This document shows, in pieces, positions 3,901-47,932 of a DNA stretch of 64,000 bases. Where the stretch lies: the NCBI RefSeq assembly GCF_000633535.1, contig NZ_AYMR01000009.1:434001-498000 (forward strand). The letters are read 5' to 3'. This stretch comes from Leifsonia aquatica H1aii. GTDB taxonomy: Bacteria > Actinomycetota > Actinomycetes > Actinomycetales > Microbacteriaceae. The position numbers and the translations under genes are program-made. Every line of letters begins with the position of its first letter. Positions within the stretch are counted from its first letter, which is position 1. The notes below the pieces were generated by a model that did no database searches, was not told where the DNA came from, and worked only from the letters and a program-made list of their open reading frames with translations.

Positions 3901-3913
3901 AGGGTCCTCCTGA

Positions 3914-3964
3914 GGGGTGCGGCGGATCGAGGGGTGCGGCGGATCGAGGGGCGCGGCGGATCGA
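3914..3964. repeat. three tandem copies of a 17-bp unit
   Basis: The unit GGGGTGCGGCGGATCGA occurs at 3914-3930 and 3931-3947 exactly, and at 3948-3964 with one change. The array fills most of the 88-bp gap between two minus-strand genes, just upstream of the ribosome-binding site of the SnoaL-like gene. It could arise by replication slippage. No function can be assigned. Confidence 0.85.
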
Positions 3965-3988
3965 GGGATTCGGGCGGGACGGGCGACG

Positions 3989-9196: not shown

Positions 9197-9260
9197 CCTG
9201 ACGCCATCAAGCCCTGACGCCATCAAGCCCTGACGCCATCACACCCTGACGGCATCACAT
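9197..9260. repeat. four tandem copies of a 16-bp unit at a convergent junction
   Basis: CCTGACGCCATCAAGC occurs exactly at 9197-9212 and 9213-9228, then in variant form at 9229-9244 and 9245-9260 (ending CACAC and CACAT). The array starts 12 nt after the stop of the plus-strand hypothetical gene and ends 29 nt before the stop of the minus-strand surface-protein gene. It contains no coding sequence and no strong hairpin. Confidence 0.9.
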
Positions 9261-20038: not shown

Positions 20039-20553
20039 CGTCGCACCGCCGCGGGGGTGTGCAGGGTCTTCTCGAACGGGTGGATGCCGACCTCCTCGGC
20101 GCTCAGCGCGGTGTCGTACAGCGGGGTGTACCCCGCCGCCAGATACAGCGCCTTCGCCTCCGGCTGCCGCGGGCCCGTCGTCAGGTACACCCGCGTGTAG
20201 CCGCGCCGCACGGCCTCGGACTCCAGCTCGGCCACCACTCGGCGGGCGAGCCCCTCGCGGCGATGGGATGCGCTGGTCCAGATGCGCTTGAGTTCGGCGG
20301 TCCGCTCGTCGTAGCGCTTGAACGCGCCTCCCGCGATCGGCGCTCCGGCGCGCAGCAGGAGCACGAACGCTCCGTGCGGCACCGCGAAGTCCTCGGCGGG
20401 GTAGCGGCTCAGCTCCACCGAGGCGCGCTCGCCGAAGAAATCTCCGTAGCGGGTGTCGTACTCGAGCTCGAGCTCGGCGAGCAGCGGGCGGGCCAGCTCG
20501 TCGGTGGCGTCGACGTAGCGGAACTCGTCGGCGAGGACGGGGGATGCGGGCAT
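20035..20553 (-). CDS. GNAT-family N-acetyltransferase
   Basis: A 172-residue GNAT. The acetyl-CoA pyrophosphate loop reads RREGLARRV, preceded by strand [11 protein letters not shown] and followed by [27 protein letters not shown]. It is the first gene of the ABC transporter operon and overlaps the permease. In the Bacillus S-substituted-cysteine salvage routes, a GNAT acetylates the imported amino acid before monooxygenase attack. This operon has the same combination, so an amino-group substrate is plausible. Confidence 0.9.
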
Positions 20554-20608
20554 CGGCGGGCCTCCAATCGGATGGGAGCGGAAGGGATGCCGATGACCGT
20601 ACGGGCGC

Positions 20609-20661
20609 CCGTCAAGCGGGCGGGAGCTCCCGTTACGGATTGCGACGCGGCCGTCACACGG
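20609..20661. promoter_or_regulatory. two CCGTCANRCGG operator candidates in the GNAT / FAD-protein divergent promoter
   Basis: CCGTCAAGCGG (20609-20619, inside the 15-bp near-palindrome 20607-20621) and CCGTCACACGG (20651-20661) match the site upstream of sufS. They are 42 nt centre to centre, about four helical turns, in a 155-bp divergent intergenic region. The spacing and the sharing between both divergent promoters of the locus suggest a common regulator. Confidence 0.55.
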
Positions 20662-20708
20662 CGCAACGGGGGCTTGGTGAACGCGTCCCGGCGGGCGACG
20701 CTGCTCGG

Positions 20709-22712
20709 ATGCCGCCCACCGCCGACCTCGCCGCCTCCCCGGTCGCCGCCTCCGTCGTCCGGACCACCGCGGTCGCCGCCTCTGTCGCTCTCGTCGCCGC
20801 CTCTGTCGCTCTCGTCGGGGCCGGTCCGCGTGCGGCCGGGTGGCTGGAGCGGTTCGGTGCCGCGCGCTCGATGCGCGCCGCGCCGCCTCCCGTGACGGTG
20901 CACCTGATCGACCCGTTCCCGCCGGGTGCCGGCCGTATCTGGCGGCGCGAGCAGTCGCCGCTGCTCAAGCTGAACTCGATGGTCGAGGACGTCACGATGT
21001 TCACCGACGACTCGTGCACGCTCGAGGGCCCGGTGCGTCCCGGTCCCTCGCTGCTCGAGTGGATGGAGGCCGTGCGCTCCGGGTCCCTCGACGACGCCCG
21101 CATCGTCGATCCGCTCGTGTGGGCCGAGGTCGGCCGTCTGCGGCGGGGCGACTTCCCGACCCGACGGCTGCAGAGCCACTACCTGGACTGGTTCCTGCGC
21201 CTGGCGATCTCCGCCCTCGACGACGGCGTGACCGTCGTCGTCCACCGCGACCGCGTGCAGGCGGTCGCGGGCACGCACGGTCCGCAGACCGTGTCCATCG
21301 CCGGCGGCGGCAGCCTCGTGGTCGACGCTGTCGTCTATGCGCTGGGCCACGCGGGAAGCGACCCTGCGGGGGAGTCGGCCCGGTTCGCGGGGTTCGCCGC
21401 CCGGCATGGCCTCGACTACCTCGCTCCCGCCTTCACGGCCGACGCCGATCTGGACGCGTTCGGAGCGGGTCGCACGGTCGCCGTGCGCGGCTTCGGTCTT
21501 GCCGCGGTCGACCTGATCGTGCTGCTGACGGAGGGGCGGGGCGGCCGCTTCGTGCCGGACCGGGGCGGCGACGGTGTGCGCTACCTGCCGAGCGGGCGGG
21601 AGCCGCGCCTGCTGATCGGTTCGCGCCGCGGCGTCCCCTACCGGTCGAAGATCTCCTCGCGGCTCGTCGGCGATCCTCCCGCGCTCCGCCACCTGACCCC
21701 GGAGGTCGTGGCCGCGCTGGCCGCCTCCACGGAGAAGCTGGACTTCCGCGAGGCCGTGTGGCCTCTGATCGCCCGCGAGCTCGTGAACGGCTACTACCGG
21801 GAGCTGTTCACCGGCCATCCCGAACGGGTCCGCATCGCCTGGCCGGAGTTCGTCGCCGAACTCGACCGGGTCGGGCAGGAGGGCGACGGCTACCGCGCTC
21901 TCGTCGCGCGCGCCCTCCGGCATCCCGATGACGCCCTGCACCTGGACGCGTTCGACCGGCCGCTCGACGGGGCACGGTTCGCCGACGCCGACGCGGTGCA
22001 GGAGGGGGTCCGCGCCCACCTCCGCGCCGATCTGCGTCAGCGCACCGATCCGGACGGCAGCGCGACCCTCGGCCTGTTCACGGCGCTGCTCCACGCCCTC
22101 TTCGCGATCGCCCCGCACCTCGCGGGGGACCTCTGGACCGAGGAGTCCCGCCGGCGCGACGTCGTGGGATGGTGGCCCGGCTACTTCAGCTACGTCGCCT
22201 CCGGACCGCCCCCGCATCGGCTGGAGGAGCTGATCGCCCTCTCGGAGGCCGGGATCGTCCGCTTCGCCGGCGCCGGGATCGGCGTCACCGCGGACGAGGC
22301 CGCCGGCCGGTTCCGGGTCGGCAGTGCGAGCGTCGCCGGCGAGACCGAGGTCACCGCCTTGATCGACGCCTGGCTGCCGGCCGCGACGGCCGAGACGAGC
22401 GACGAGCCCGCCCTGCGCGACCTGGTCGCGTCCGGCGCCGGATCGGTGCGCCACGGCCAGGTGCGCGTCTCGGCGACCGATGCCCGGGTGCTGCGCCCGG
22501 ACGGCTCCCCGCATCCCGCGCGCTGGGCGATCGGCCCCTTCACGACGGCACCCTTCGCCGGCGCCTTCTCCCGTCCGGGCACCGACGCCCTCGCCTTCCG
22601 CGAGAACGACCGGGTCGCCCAGGCCGTGCTCGACGTGCTCACCGCGCGCTCGCGCTCGCCGCTCGCGACCCCCGCTCCCGCCCCCGCTCCCGCTCCCGCT
22701 CCCGCGAGGTGA
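20709..22712 (+). CDS. FAD/NAD(P)-binding protein (NAD_binding_9-like)
   Basis: A 667-residue flavoprotein. The dinucleotide-binding loop is VALVGAGPRAAGWLERF at about residues 33-49, followed by VTVHLIDPFPPGAGRIWRR and LLKLNSMVEDVTMF. An internal FAD-associated segment is VVDAVVYALGHAG. It matches the layout of large actinobacterial FAD/NAD(P) proteins of the NAD_binding_9 type, whose reactions are mostly unknown. The N-terminus carries two exact 7-residue repeats (VAASVAL) from a 21-nt tandem duplication. The C-terminus ends in Ala-Pro repeats, and the stop codon lies in the first unit of the adjoining hairpin array. It diverges from the GNAT-ABC operon and may supply electrons or an oxidase step to that pathway. 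Confidence 0.8.
   Translation: MPPTADLAASPVAASVVRTTAVAASVALVAASVALVGAGPRAAGWLERFGAARSMRAAPPPVTVHLIDPFPPGAGRIWRREQSPLLKLNSMVEDVTMFTDDSCTLEGPVRPGPSLLEWMEAVRSGSLDDARIVDPLVWAEVGRLRRGDFPTRRLQSHYLDWFLRLAISALDDGVTVVVHRDRVQAVAGTHGPQTVSIAGGGSLVVDAVVYALGHAGSDPAGESARFAGFAARHGLDYLAPAFTADADLDAFGAGRTVAVRGFGLAAVDLIVLLTEGRGGRFVPDRGGDGVRYLPSGREPRLLIGSRRGVPYRSKISSRLVGDPPALRHLTPEVVAALAASTEKLDFREAVWPLIARELVNGYYRELFTGHPERVRIAWPEFVAELDRVGQEGDGYRALVARALRHPDDALHLDAFDRPLDGARFADADAVQEGVRAHLRADLRQRTDPDGSATLGLFTALLHALFAIAPHLAGDLWTEESRRRDVVGWWPGYFSYVASGPPPHRLEELIALSEAGIVRFAGAGIGVTADEAAGRFRVGSASVAGETEVTALIDAWLPAATAETSDEPALRDLVASGAGSVRHGQVRVSATDARVLRPDGSPHPARWAIGPFTTAPFAGAFSRPGTDALAFRENDRVAQAVLDVLTARSRSPLATPAPAPAPAPAPAR
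20772..20813 (+). repeat. exact 21-nt tandem duplication inside a coding region
   Basis: The 21-nt unit at 20772-20792 is repeated exactly at 20793-20813. Each unit encodes VAASVAL. It lies immediately before the Gly-rich FAD/NAD loop of the flavoprotein, so changes in copy number keep the frame and lengthen the N-terminal arm. Confidence 0.9.
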
Positions 22713-23252
22713 GAGTCGTTGCGGGTATTCCGCCCGTTTACCCGCAAGAACTCACCCTTCGCCGGCGGCACCGCACCCCCGCTCCGCGAGGTGAGGGTTG
22801 TTGCGGGTATTCCGCGCGTTTACCCGCAACGACTCACCCTTCGTGGTCGGCACCGCCCCCCCCGCCCCCGCGAGGTGAGGGTTGTTGCGGGTATTCCGCG
22901 CGTTTACCCGCAATTACTCACCCTTCGTGGGCGCACCGTACCCCGCTCCCGCGAGGTGTGAGTTGTTGCGGGTATGTCGCGCGTTTACCCGCAACAACTC
23001 ACCCTTCGCGGGCGGCACCGCACCCCCCGCTGCGGCGAGGTGAGGGTTGTTGCGGGTGTTTCGCCCGTTTACCCGCAACTACTCACCCTTCGCGGGCGCA
23101 CCGCACCCCGCTGCGGCGAGGTGAGAGTCGTTGCGGGTATTCCGCGCGTTTACCCGCAACTACTCACCTTTCGTGGGCGCGCACAGCGCCCGACTCAGGC
23201 GAGGTGTGAGTTGTTGCGGGTATGTCGCGCGTTTACCCGCAACAACTCACCC
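22706..23252. repeat. array of seven tandem ~82-bp units, each with a long hairpin
   Basis: Units begin GAGGTG at 22706, 22788, 22872, 22953, 23037, 23118 and 23201, with spacings of 81-84 bp. Each has a left arm ending GTTGCGGGTA (GTTGCGGGTG in the fifth unit), a loop of about 10-12 nt and a right arm TACCCGCAA...CTCACC. In units 4 and 7 the 15-nt arms are exact complements. Others carry one or two mismatches or G-T pairs. Linkers are similar too (CCCTTCG..GGGCGGCACCGCACCCC). Variants occur in the order A B B C B A C. The array fills the gap between converging genes and supplies the stop codon of the flavoprotein gene. No protein or known element is recognised. Confidence 0.95.
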
Positions 23253-23302
23253 TTCGCGGGCGGCACCGCACCCGACGCCGGGGCGAGCGCGACGCAAGCG
23301 GG

Positions 23303-23812
23303 TCAGGGCTCCAGGGTGCCGAGCCAGCGGGTGAGGATGCGCTCGAGCGCCTGCGCGTCGGTCGGGGAGAGGTCGGCGAGGAGCCGCTGCTCGTTCGCCA
23401 TGTGCGCGGTGAAGGCGGCGTCGATCGTCGAGCGTCCGAGGGGGGTCAGCGCGACCACCCGTCCGCGGCCGTCGCCGTCGGCGGCGCGGCGCGTCACGAG
23501 TCCGGCATGCTCGAGCCGGTCCAGGCGCTTGGTCATCCCGCCGGTCGTGATCATCGTGTGTTCGGCCAGGTCGCCGGGCGTGCGCTCGTAGGGGGCTCCC
23601 GAGCGGCGCAGCGCGGCGAGCACGTCGAAGTCGCCTTCGCCGAGGCCGTGCTCGGCGTAGACGGCCGTGAGCTCGTCGGTCAGCCGGGCGGCGACGCGGT
23701 GGAGGCGGCCGATGACCCCCTGCGGCGCGACGTCGAGATCCGGGCGCTCGCGCCGCCACTCCTGCTGGATCCGCGCGACGTGATCGGGATGCTCCGGGAT
23801 GTCCTGCTGCAT
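23303..23812 (-). CDS. MarR-family transcriptional regulator
   Basis: A 169-residue winged-helix regulator. Helix-turn-helix and wing are seen in EGDFDVLAALRRSG, TPGDLAEHTMITTGGMTKRLDRLEHAGLV and the wing RRAADGDGRGRVVALTPLG. It diverges from an EamA transporter gene with 39 bp between the starts. That gap and the EamA start codon carry an 18-bp palindrome, so the protein probably represses the transporter and itself. The ligand is unknown. Confidence 0.92.
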   Translation of the reverse strand: MQQDIPEHPDHVARIQQEWRRERPDLDVAPQGVIGRLHRVAARLTDELTAVYAEHGLGEGDFDVLAALRRSGAPYERTPGDLAEHTMITTGGMTKRLDRLEHAGLVTRRAADGDGRGRVVALTPLGRSTIDAAFTAHMANEQRLLADLSPTDAQALERILTRWLGTLEP

Positions 23813-23843
23813 CCCACCACATTACCTTCCCGAGAAGCTAAAC

Positions 23844-23861
23844 TATCTTCCATGGAAGCTA
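23844..23861. promoter_or_regulatory. MarR operator candidate overlapping the EamA start codon
   Basis: TATCTTCCA-TGGAAGCTA is an 18-bp inverted repeat with 8 of 9 pairs, centred on the perfect TTCCATGGAA (23848-23857). The EamA ATG (23852-23854) is at its centre. A second half, GAAGCTAAA, occurs at 23834-23842, exactly 21 bp from its copy at 23855-23863. AGCTTCC-type palindromes are common MarR-family sites. Confidence 0.7.
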
Positions 23862-24769
23862 AATGGGGCTGGATCGCCCTCACCGCCGTCGCCCCGATCG
23901 CCTGGGGCTCCACCTACGTCGTCACCCGCGCCGTCCTCCCCGGCGAGCCGCTCTGGGGATCCGTGCTGCGTGCGCTGCCCGCCGGGCTGCTCCTCCTGTT
24001 GGTCAAACGGCGGATGCCGCGCGGCGCGTGGTGGTGGCGGTCGGCGGTGCTCGGGGTGCTCACCTCGGGCGGGTTCTTCGCGCTCGTCTACGCCGTGGCC
24101 CGGCTCCTGCCGTCCGGCGTCGCGTCCACGGTGATGGCCGCTTCGCCGCTCGCGATGATGGCGCTCGCCTGGATCGTGCTGGGCCAGCGGCCTCGCTTGC
24201 TCGCGTTGGCGGGCGGCGTCGCCGGCGCGATCGGGGTGGCGGTGATGCTCCTCGGTGCGGCGACGGGCGTCGATCCGCTCGGTGTCGTCGCGGCCGTGGC
24301 GGCGATGCTGCTGTCGTCCGTCGGCTATGTGCTCGTGACGCGGTGGGAGGGGGAGGTGGACGTGTTCTCGGCGACCTCCTGGCAGCTGATCGCGGGCGGC
24401 CTCCTGATGCTTCCGCTCGCGCTCGTGTTCGAGGGGGCGCCTCCCGCGCTCGACGGGCCGGCGATCGCGGGCTTCGCCTACGTGACGGTGATCGCGACCG
24501 CGGTCGCCTTCCTCGCGTGGTTCTCCGGACTGCGCCATCTCGGACCGGCGACCGTCGGGCTCATCGGCCTGCTGAACCCGGTCACGGGCGTGCTGCTCGG
24601 CGCCCTCGTCGCGGGGGAGACCCTGACCGGTCGGCAGCTGCTCGGTCTCGGGATCGTGCTCGCCGGGATCGCGGTCGGTCAGTCGGCCAAGGCGTCGAGA
24701 AAACCGCGGGTCGGAGCGAAGAACGTCGTGCCCGTGGCGGCGGTGGAGAAGTCCAGGATGCGGTCGTAG
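23852..24769 (+). CDS. EamA/DMT-superfamily transporter
   Basis: A 305-residue inner-membrane transporter with about ten hydrophobic segments in two EamA halves. The first half opens with WIALTAVAPIAWGSTYVVTR, the second with GVVAAVAAMLLSSVGYVLVTR. The conserved PIAWGSTY and GLIGLLNPVTGVLLGALVAGE motifs of DMT exporters are present. The C-terminal 30 residues run 91 nt into the 3' end of the converging DyP gene. It is probably an exporter of an amphipathic compound sensed by the MarR neighbour. Confidence 0.92.
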   Translation: MEAKWGWIALTAVAPIAWGSTYVVTRAVLPGEPLWGSVLRALPAGLLLLLVKRRMPRGAWWWRSAVLGVLTSGGFFALVYAVARLLPSGVASTVMAASPLAMMALAWIVLGQRPRLLALAGGVAGAIGVAVMLLGAATGVDPLGVVAAVAAMLLSSVGYVLVTRWEGEVDVFSATSWQLIAGGLLMLPLALVFEGAPPALDGPAIAGFAYVTVIATAVAFLAWFSGLRHLGPATVGLIGLLNPVTGVLLGALVAGETLTGRQLLGLGIVLAGIAVGQSAKASRKPRVGAKNVVPVAAVEKSRMRS

Positions 24770-47678: not shown

Positions 47679-47932
47679 CCGCCTCCGCAGCCGCGGCCTC
47701 GCCGCGTCTCGCGTGGGGGCGAGCGCTGCGGTTCGGGACGAACGCGGCGCGGCGCCCGACCGCGCACGTCCCGTGCGGCCGCGCACGTCCCGAGCGGCCG
47801 CGCACGTCCCGTGCGACCGCGGTCGCCGTGCTGTGGCGATTGGGGGCGGTCAGCGAGCGGCGGGTAGGCGGCCCGGTGCGCTGCGGTTCGGGACTTACGC
47901 GGCGCGGCGGCGCGTCGGCGACGCGGCGGCGG
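47679..47932. repeat. gene-free convergent gap with 19-bp triple repeat and a ~30-bp direct repeat
   Basis: Three 19-bp units CGCGCACGTCCCGTGCGGC lie at 47761-47779, 47780-47798 and 47799-47817 with one or two changes. A block containing GCGCTGCGGTTCGGGAC followed by ACGCGGCGCGGCG recurs on both sides (about 47724-47753 and 47879-47909). No gene is visible in the 254-bp gap between ddl and the DUF3515 gene. Confidence 0.85.

Follow-up and report, generated by a model that had tools for sequence, protein, structure and literature searches.

A tandem palindrome array in Leifsonia aquatica belongs to a dispersed, REP-like family with a putative Vsr-like nuclease partner

Results

Seven palindromes close a convergent gene pair

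The window analysed here is a 64,000-nucleotide stretch of the Leifsonia aquatica H1aii genome (GCF_000633535.1, contig NZ_AYMR01000009.1, positions 434,001 to 498,000 of the forward strand; the genome is called G000 below). At 22703-23258 it holds seven palindromes of about 61 nt each, arranged head to tail in a single orientation between two genes that converge on the array (Table 1). The units follow one another at intervals of 82, 84, 81, 84, 81 and 83 bp, and TRF reports a repeat at 22695-23273 with a period of 81, 7.0 copies, 85% matches and a score of 803. The TGA codon that ends the FAD-NAD(P)-binding-domain gene lies inside unit 1. This bears out the first-pass annotation, which had described seven units of one orientation that supply the stop codon of a flavoprotein gene at a convergent junction. 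Its variant order, A B B C B A C, is likewise what we read along the sequence, and the near-identity that it saw between units 4 and 7 amounts to 79 of 84 positions, or 60 of 61 over the first 61.

Table 1. Palindromic units and flanking genes at the array (window coordinates)
Feature	Position	Strand	Remarks
Upstream gene, FAD-NAD(P)-binding protein	20709..22712	+	start uncertain; longest ORF 20544-22712
Unit 1, variant A	22703..22763	.	contains upstream gene's stop codon, 22710-22712
Unit 2, variant B	22785..22845	.	
Unit 3, variant B	22869..22929	.	
Unit 4, variant C	22950..23010	.	near-perfect palindrome
Unit 5, variant B	23034..23094	.	
Unit 6, variant A	23115..23175	.	
Unit 7, variant C	23198..23258	.	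near-perfect palindrome
Downstream gene, convergent, MarR-family regulator	23303..23812	-	

The palindromes have arms of about 25 pairs around a loop of about 12 nt. The loop is close to the 10-12 nt given in the first reading; the arms are longer than its estimate of about 15 nt, and the scarcity of arm mismatches noted there applies to units 4 and 7, the only near-perfect palindromes of the array. Units 1, 2, 3, 5 and 6 have more mismatches and are partly eroded. All seven units fold better than their own 200 shuffles (z -4.3 to -9.2).

A simple scan of 22500-23500 gave no sigma-70 promoter, and a consensus scan of the same interval with a loop limit of 8 gave 0 T-tailed terminators; by reading, no T-run follows the units. 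A known Rfam RNA was rejected, as an E-value search of 22000-24000 returned none at the gathering score, the top match being MIR1437 with 40.6 bits versus a cut-off of 168.

Across 12 arrays (the window array at 22703-23258 and those of L053-L071), 25 of 50 unit-to-unit intervals fall at 80-85, 18 at 94, 2 at 105 and 5 elsewhere. The corresponding spacers of about 21, 32 and 43 bp lie near 2, 3 and 4 helical turns, a clustering that common ancestry of the arrays may explain. Elsewhere in the window, a 19-nt tandem repeat with a partly palindromic unit (CCGCGCACGTCCCGTGCGG) occupies 47760-47821 in 3.3 copies, a 16-nt repeat occupies 9197-9257 in 3.8 copies and a 17-nt repeat occupies 3912-3967 in 3.3 copies.

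The stem is kept in a family dispersed through the genus

In an alignment of 90 units, 87.5% of cells are paired, against a shuffled mean of 85.8 (sd 0.4) and 34-50% when the partners are slid. Both sides have changed at 13 of 25 stem pairs, where the shuffled mean is 9.4 and 4 of 500 shuffles reach this count, and the covariation score is 0.137 versus 0.108, with none of 500 shuffles reaching 0.137; these shuffle tests overstate significance because many of the 90 rows are related, and the stem structure tested was derived from the same 90 sequences. Pairs 8/55 and 15/48 are open in about half of the units. Judged by eye, the arm sequence differs in other genera and both arms change together. 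The paired changes agree with the earlier view that the stem was kept while its sequence drifted.

A covariance model built from the 90 units was used to search the genome, the genus and the family. Genome-wide unit counts are lower bounds throughout, at most 150 candidates per genome having been scored, or at most 35 in the family survey of 150 genomes. G000 has matches at at least 29 places, namely the 7 of the window, two further arrays with 5 and 2 units, and 15 elsewhere, so that the unit is present at at least 22 places besides the window array. Matches occur in 22 of 28 Leifsonia genomes and, with stricter filters, in 29 of 150 genomes and 24 of 85 genera of the family (own genus included, with 2 of the 29). 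This search of the Microbacteriaceae, proposed with the first reading, returned single units as well as arrays. The array is not a chance local duplication, since by the two signs named beforehand, copies elsewhere and compensatory stem changes, both are present, and the unit recurs in its own genome, genus and family.

A strict sequence pattern matched, in the genome collection, only the species of G021 (Leifsonia aquatica DSM 20146) and G015 (Leifsonia sp. 71-9), the window genome's own records possibly having been left out; the first strict pattern gave no match in the genome search. No plasmid matched the window array and no viral contig carried the strict unit pattern, and a plasmid or viral home for the array was rejected on these grounds.

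The same two genes flank a 6-unit array in G015 (L060) and a 4-unit array in G021 (L068), with gene flanks 84-87% identical, so that copy number at this junction differs among the three arrays (7, 6 and 4). Mean unit identity within the array is 0.90 in the window, 0.77 in L060 and 0.86 in L068, compared with 0.78-0.83 between arrays, so that identity within the array clearly exceeds that between arrays for the window array alone. A second palindrome family, GGCACGTNGTTG, was found among the 28 genomes only in G026 (at least 32 copies), G007 (at least 34), G009 (at least 66), G027 (at least 42) and G024 (at least 3).

A predicted nuclease gene lies between paired units

REP palindromes have been studied intensively in bacteria, and RAYT transposases are their best-known drivers. 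The first-pass annotation had named a RAYT-type transposase as a possible neighbour of the unit. The transposase search covered the RAYT family (Y1_Tnp, PF01797) and found it in 0 of 28 genus genomes, while a control search detected it in 5 of 14 genomes already known; a RAYT partner was rejected on this result. In its position we find a gene for a putative Vsr-like nuclease: unit pairs about 1000 bp apart recur, and several enclose a gene for a protein of about 300 residues.

At E 0.01, the C-terminal part of this protein matches PF18741 (MTES_1575, Vsr-like REase) in 15 of 16 members and DUF559 (PF04480) in 9 of 16, with Pfam scores under the curated cut-offs in the three members listed singly. 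Among solved structures the closest, by a weak profile match, is 3r3p, a 'Mobile intron protein' (E 0.0049), which we take to be a Vsr-like (EDxHD) homing endonuclease. Five columns are invariant in all 16 members, E198, D231, E242, H248 and D258 (numbering of the first row). These candidate catalytic residues presumably fit the active site of a Vsr-like (EDxHD) nuclease. The N-terminal part of about 200 residues has no firm assignment, with an AbiEi_4 match in 1 of 16 members (E 0.0083). The protein had no transposase family match in Pfam and is predicted to be a DNA-cutting enzyme, a Vsr/DUF559-type PD-(D/E)XK nuclease. The system is widespread: 87 of 120 genomes of the family encode a related nuclease. 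No viral relative was confirmed, the phage collection giving one weak match of 31.8% identity.

Most nuclease genes have matching flanks

For the flank comparison, 70 nuclease loci were collected by protein match, the best 30 search hits and 40 chosen from the hit list; 69 were scorable, L260 being left unscored for an internal stop. The two flanks share sequence (local score of at least 14) in 50 of the 69 loci, or in 48 of 65 without the discovery-genome loci L246, L247, L250 and L251. Several seed-set nucleases had been found through their closeness to palindromes. When the left flank of one nuclease is set against the right flank of another, 11 of 815 pairs reach this score. So do 1 of 30 neighbour genes and 9 of 258 control genes, the control genes having been taken from loci selected around palindromes. 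With the threshold raised to 20, a match is seen in 33 of 69 nuclease loci, 2 of 815 mismatched pairs and 2 of 258 control genes. In many loci the common flank sequence is visibly palindromic on both sides, and 19 of the 69 have no flank match at score 14.

Among 50 nucleases, the best palindromes of different nucleases match at score 14 in 0 of 1225 pairs, which indicates that the palindrome is particular to its nuclease and evolves faster than the protein. A Mantel test came out weak and speaks against a partnership of nuclease and palindrome: the similarity of the one hardly tracks that of the other (whole protein, r 0.045, p 0.088; N-terminal part, r 0.08, p 0.016; C-terminal part, r 0.005, p 0.44).

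A shared locus allows the two ends to be compared across species. Here a conserved, putative aldo/keto reductase-like gene mostly faces a putative MFS transporter-like gene (AKR/MFS locus), and downstream of the former a nuclease is present in 21 of 26 genomes, with palindromes of score at least 10 at both ends in 12 of the 21. In the 11 species examined, the palindromes at the two ends of a nuclease agree with an identity of 0.77-0.95, compared with averages of 0.53-0.74 for left-end palindromes across species. Between close sister species, palindromes of the same side resemble each other more than the two ends do. In the Micrococcaceae, the match between the palindromes at the two ends is clear for two of 3 Arthrobacter plasmid nucleases and partial for the third. 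Genes other than this nuclease also lie between two matching units at L063 4066-4977 and L197 3091-5463.

The palindromes follow stop codons

Taking as a block any palindrome of score at least 17 and 44-85 nt in the fetched loci, together with the window array, and thus not this family alone, and with gene calls by a simple script, 63 of 101 blocks in 12 genomes lie at convergent junctions, 32 at tandem and 5 at divergent ones, and 1 is intragenic. The other junctions in the same loci comprise 60 convergent, 294 tandem and 107 divergent. For 95 blocks, the median distance to the closest stop codon upstream is 8 bp.

Such placement, the strong folds of the units and the recurrence of an array at this junction in three species would suit bidirectional terminators or boundaries, that is, hairpins under selection at convergent gene ends, with the nuclease genes merely using the same kind of hairpin. 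However, a stem suffices for a terminator and needs no common sequence across the genome, whereas the sequences described above are specific to each nuclease, with a match between the two flanks of its gene; the window stems also lack a following T-run. We regard this explanation of the palindromes as unlikely. A terminator role is nevertheless possible, given the site 3' of stop codons, and can coexist with a nuclease-linked system.

In several genomes, palindromes match the genome's own nuclease

We compared units with the flanks of 97 nuclease loci, some of these nucleases having been found through an adjoining unit. The best match is the own genome's nuclease for 8 of 8 units in G031, 6 of 6 in G121, 8 of 8 in G150, 10 of 10 in G175, 2 of 2 in G001 and 20 of 21 in G021. 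For G015 it is the own nuclease in 17 of 50 units, and in 46 of 50 when G021 is counted.

The window genome departs from this pattern. Its 29 units match best to G021 or G015 (20), G150 (5), G010 (2), G018 (1) and G000 itself (1). Within the window, units 4 and 7 point to G015 nuclease flanks (scores 34 and 33), units 5 and 6 to G021 (27 and 25), and units 1-3, weakly, to G150 of a distant genus (24 each). G000 has six nucleases, and of the four examined two (L228 and L229) have palindromes of two other kinds, L227 has a third palindrome type at one end and L230 has none of this type. Since the nucleases examined carry other palindromes, the window family looks orphaned in G000, its putative matching nuclease being seen in relatives. 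Further exceptions exist: 5 of 8 G010 units match G021 best, and all three G009 units match G023 or G024. At the AKR/MFS locus the nucleases of G009 and G027 carry the GGCACGTNGTTG type and those of G007 and G024 do not; G007 has at least 34 GGCACGT palindromes, yet its nuclease at this locus carries another type. The exceptions in G000 and G007 mean that the coupling of palindrome and nuclease is not one-to-one. In L229 (G000:C4:1-2600) the contig starts within the apparent left palindrome of the nuclease, the right one lying at 970-1007, and the assembly may break at such hairpins.

These exceptions bear on whether another, unseen transposase or host recombination spreads the palindromes, with the nuclease as a passenger or parasite of the repeats. 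Most G000 units match none of the four nucleases examined out of the six in that genome, and the nuclease loci without matched flanks would also fit. We consider such a process quite unlikely, as nuclease-specific palindromes occur in many genera and RAYT was not found in the genus. The palindromes might also be operators through which the nuclease, binding by its N-terminal part, regulates the gene that encodes it, with the dispersed copies acting as a regulon or as decoys. The weak AbiEi antitoxin match and a palindrome sequence particular to each nuclease could be cited for this. Against this, the palindromes are found 3' of genes and, at the nuclease gene, on either side, with 5 of 101 blocks at divergent junctions; an operator role appears very unlikely.

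Presence and absence differ between species

The nuclease gene with its palindromes is present in some species and absent from others. At the AKR/MFS locus the gene is missing in 5 genomes, with a gap of 28 bp in G026. One G027 palindrome, accompanied by about 35 bp of extra sequence, is missing at the matching site in seven relatives whose flanks are 79-93% identical; the gap there is at most 18 bp in six relatives and 42 bp in G010. This palindrome accounts for 7 of 12 empty-site comparisons. Another 2 concern units of G015 and G010, where relatives have 33 and 27 bp of other sequence at the sites, and 3 are artefacts within arrays. No clean target duplication was seen at the empty sites, which are much diverged. 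Movement by the nuclease would be consistent with these differences.

Discussion

The sequence comparisons show a module structure, nuclease-specific palindromes, dispersal, presence/absence differences, paired stem changes and placement within a few bases of a preceding stop codon. From these we think it fairly probable that the family consists of REP-like, mobile-element-like selfish palindromes that sit just behind stop codons and have a Vsr-like nuclease as their partner. The first-pass annotation had offered a multi-hairpin transcription barrier, a protein-binding array, an RNA with its own function and a REP-like selfish repeat. The last comes closest, given single copies, arrays, intergenic sites, compensatory changes and occurrence in many species, without the RAYT partner that had been envisaged.

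A complete module of about 1 kb would comprise the gene for the nuclease of about 300 residues between two palindromes of about 60 bp that share one sequence, with single palindromes and tandem arrays as the non-coding members of the system. We infer that the nuclease is a DNA-cutting enzyme able to recognise the palindrome that belongs to it, in duplex, cruciform or hairpin form. Repair or copying after the cut would then spread and homogenise the palindromes, and arrays would grow by unequal exchange. More tentatively, and at somewhat less than even confidence, these modules may represent a new class of mobile element, in which a nuclease gene bounded by two recognised palindromes of about 60 bp seeds and homogenises copies by cutting and repair, without a transposase. 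The window array represents a local amplification of the family, by now probably a relic, possibly kept as a boundary between the convergent genes.

This arrangement poses the question how the system relates to known ones. According to the available text of one account of REP/RAYT elements, the repeats measure 20-40 bp and bear a GTAG (or CGTC) tag at one end; in REPtrons, a RAYT gene is flanked by repeat copies, and the palindromes are extragenic and dispersed (PMC3733652). The present family shares with REP/BIME-RAYT systems the dispersed extragenic palindromes, occurring singly and in arrays, and the enzyme gene between its own repeats. In contrast, its partner is a putative Vsr-like nuclease instead of a RAYT, and the consensus of the 90 units, CGCGAG...CTCGCG over 62 columns, has no GTAG tag and exceeds the repeat length given in that text. 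The system works like a REPtron, yet on two tested features it falls outside the RAYT group.

Vsr-like (EDxHD) homing endonucleases such as 3r3p have a related nuclease domain, by the weak profile match, and a similar selfish logic is possible. Unlike them, the nuclease gene has no intron or intein seen around it, is flanked by palindromes and encodes the additional N-terminal part. As in MITEs and insertion sequences, a repeat lies at each end of the module and solo copies occur. Here, however, each end is a whole palindrome, and neither a transposase match nor a target duplication was seen. The MTES_1575 REase domain also occurs in giant multidomain HEPN proteins, which thus share the Pfam domain family; the available text of that account does not mention palindromes (PMC3710099).

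Our literature search, which covered few subscription papers, found no account of palindromes flanking DUF559/MTES_1575 genes. The link of the palindromes to a predicted DNA-cutting enzyme suggests a little-known kind of self-spreading repeat: a palindrome population unrelated to REP, in a genus where RAYT was not found, and linked to a predicted Vsr-like nuclease. Because each nuclease has its own palindrome, recognition can be tested pair by pair, and the system would give a role to some of the actinobacterial genes annotated as 'DUF559 / endonuclease domain'. The idea that another MTES_1575 subclass is without palindromes proved unsafe, as the flanks match at a score of at least 14 in 4 of the 10 genes compared. 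One MTES_1575-class gene of this other subclass (L240 in G175, at about 1311-2285) is flanked by a 79-nt near-repeat with palindromic ends and a longer loop, and the palindrome association may extend to more of the nuclease family.
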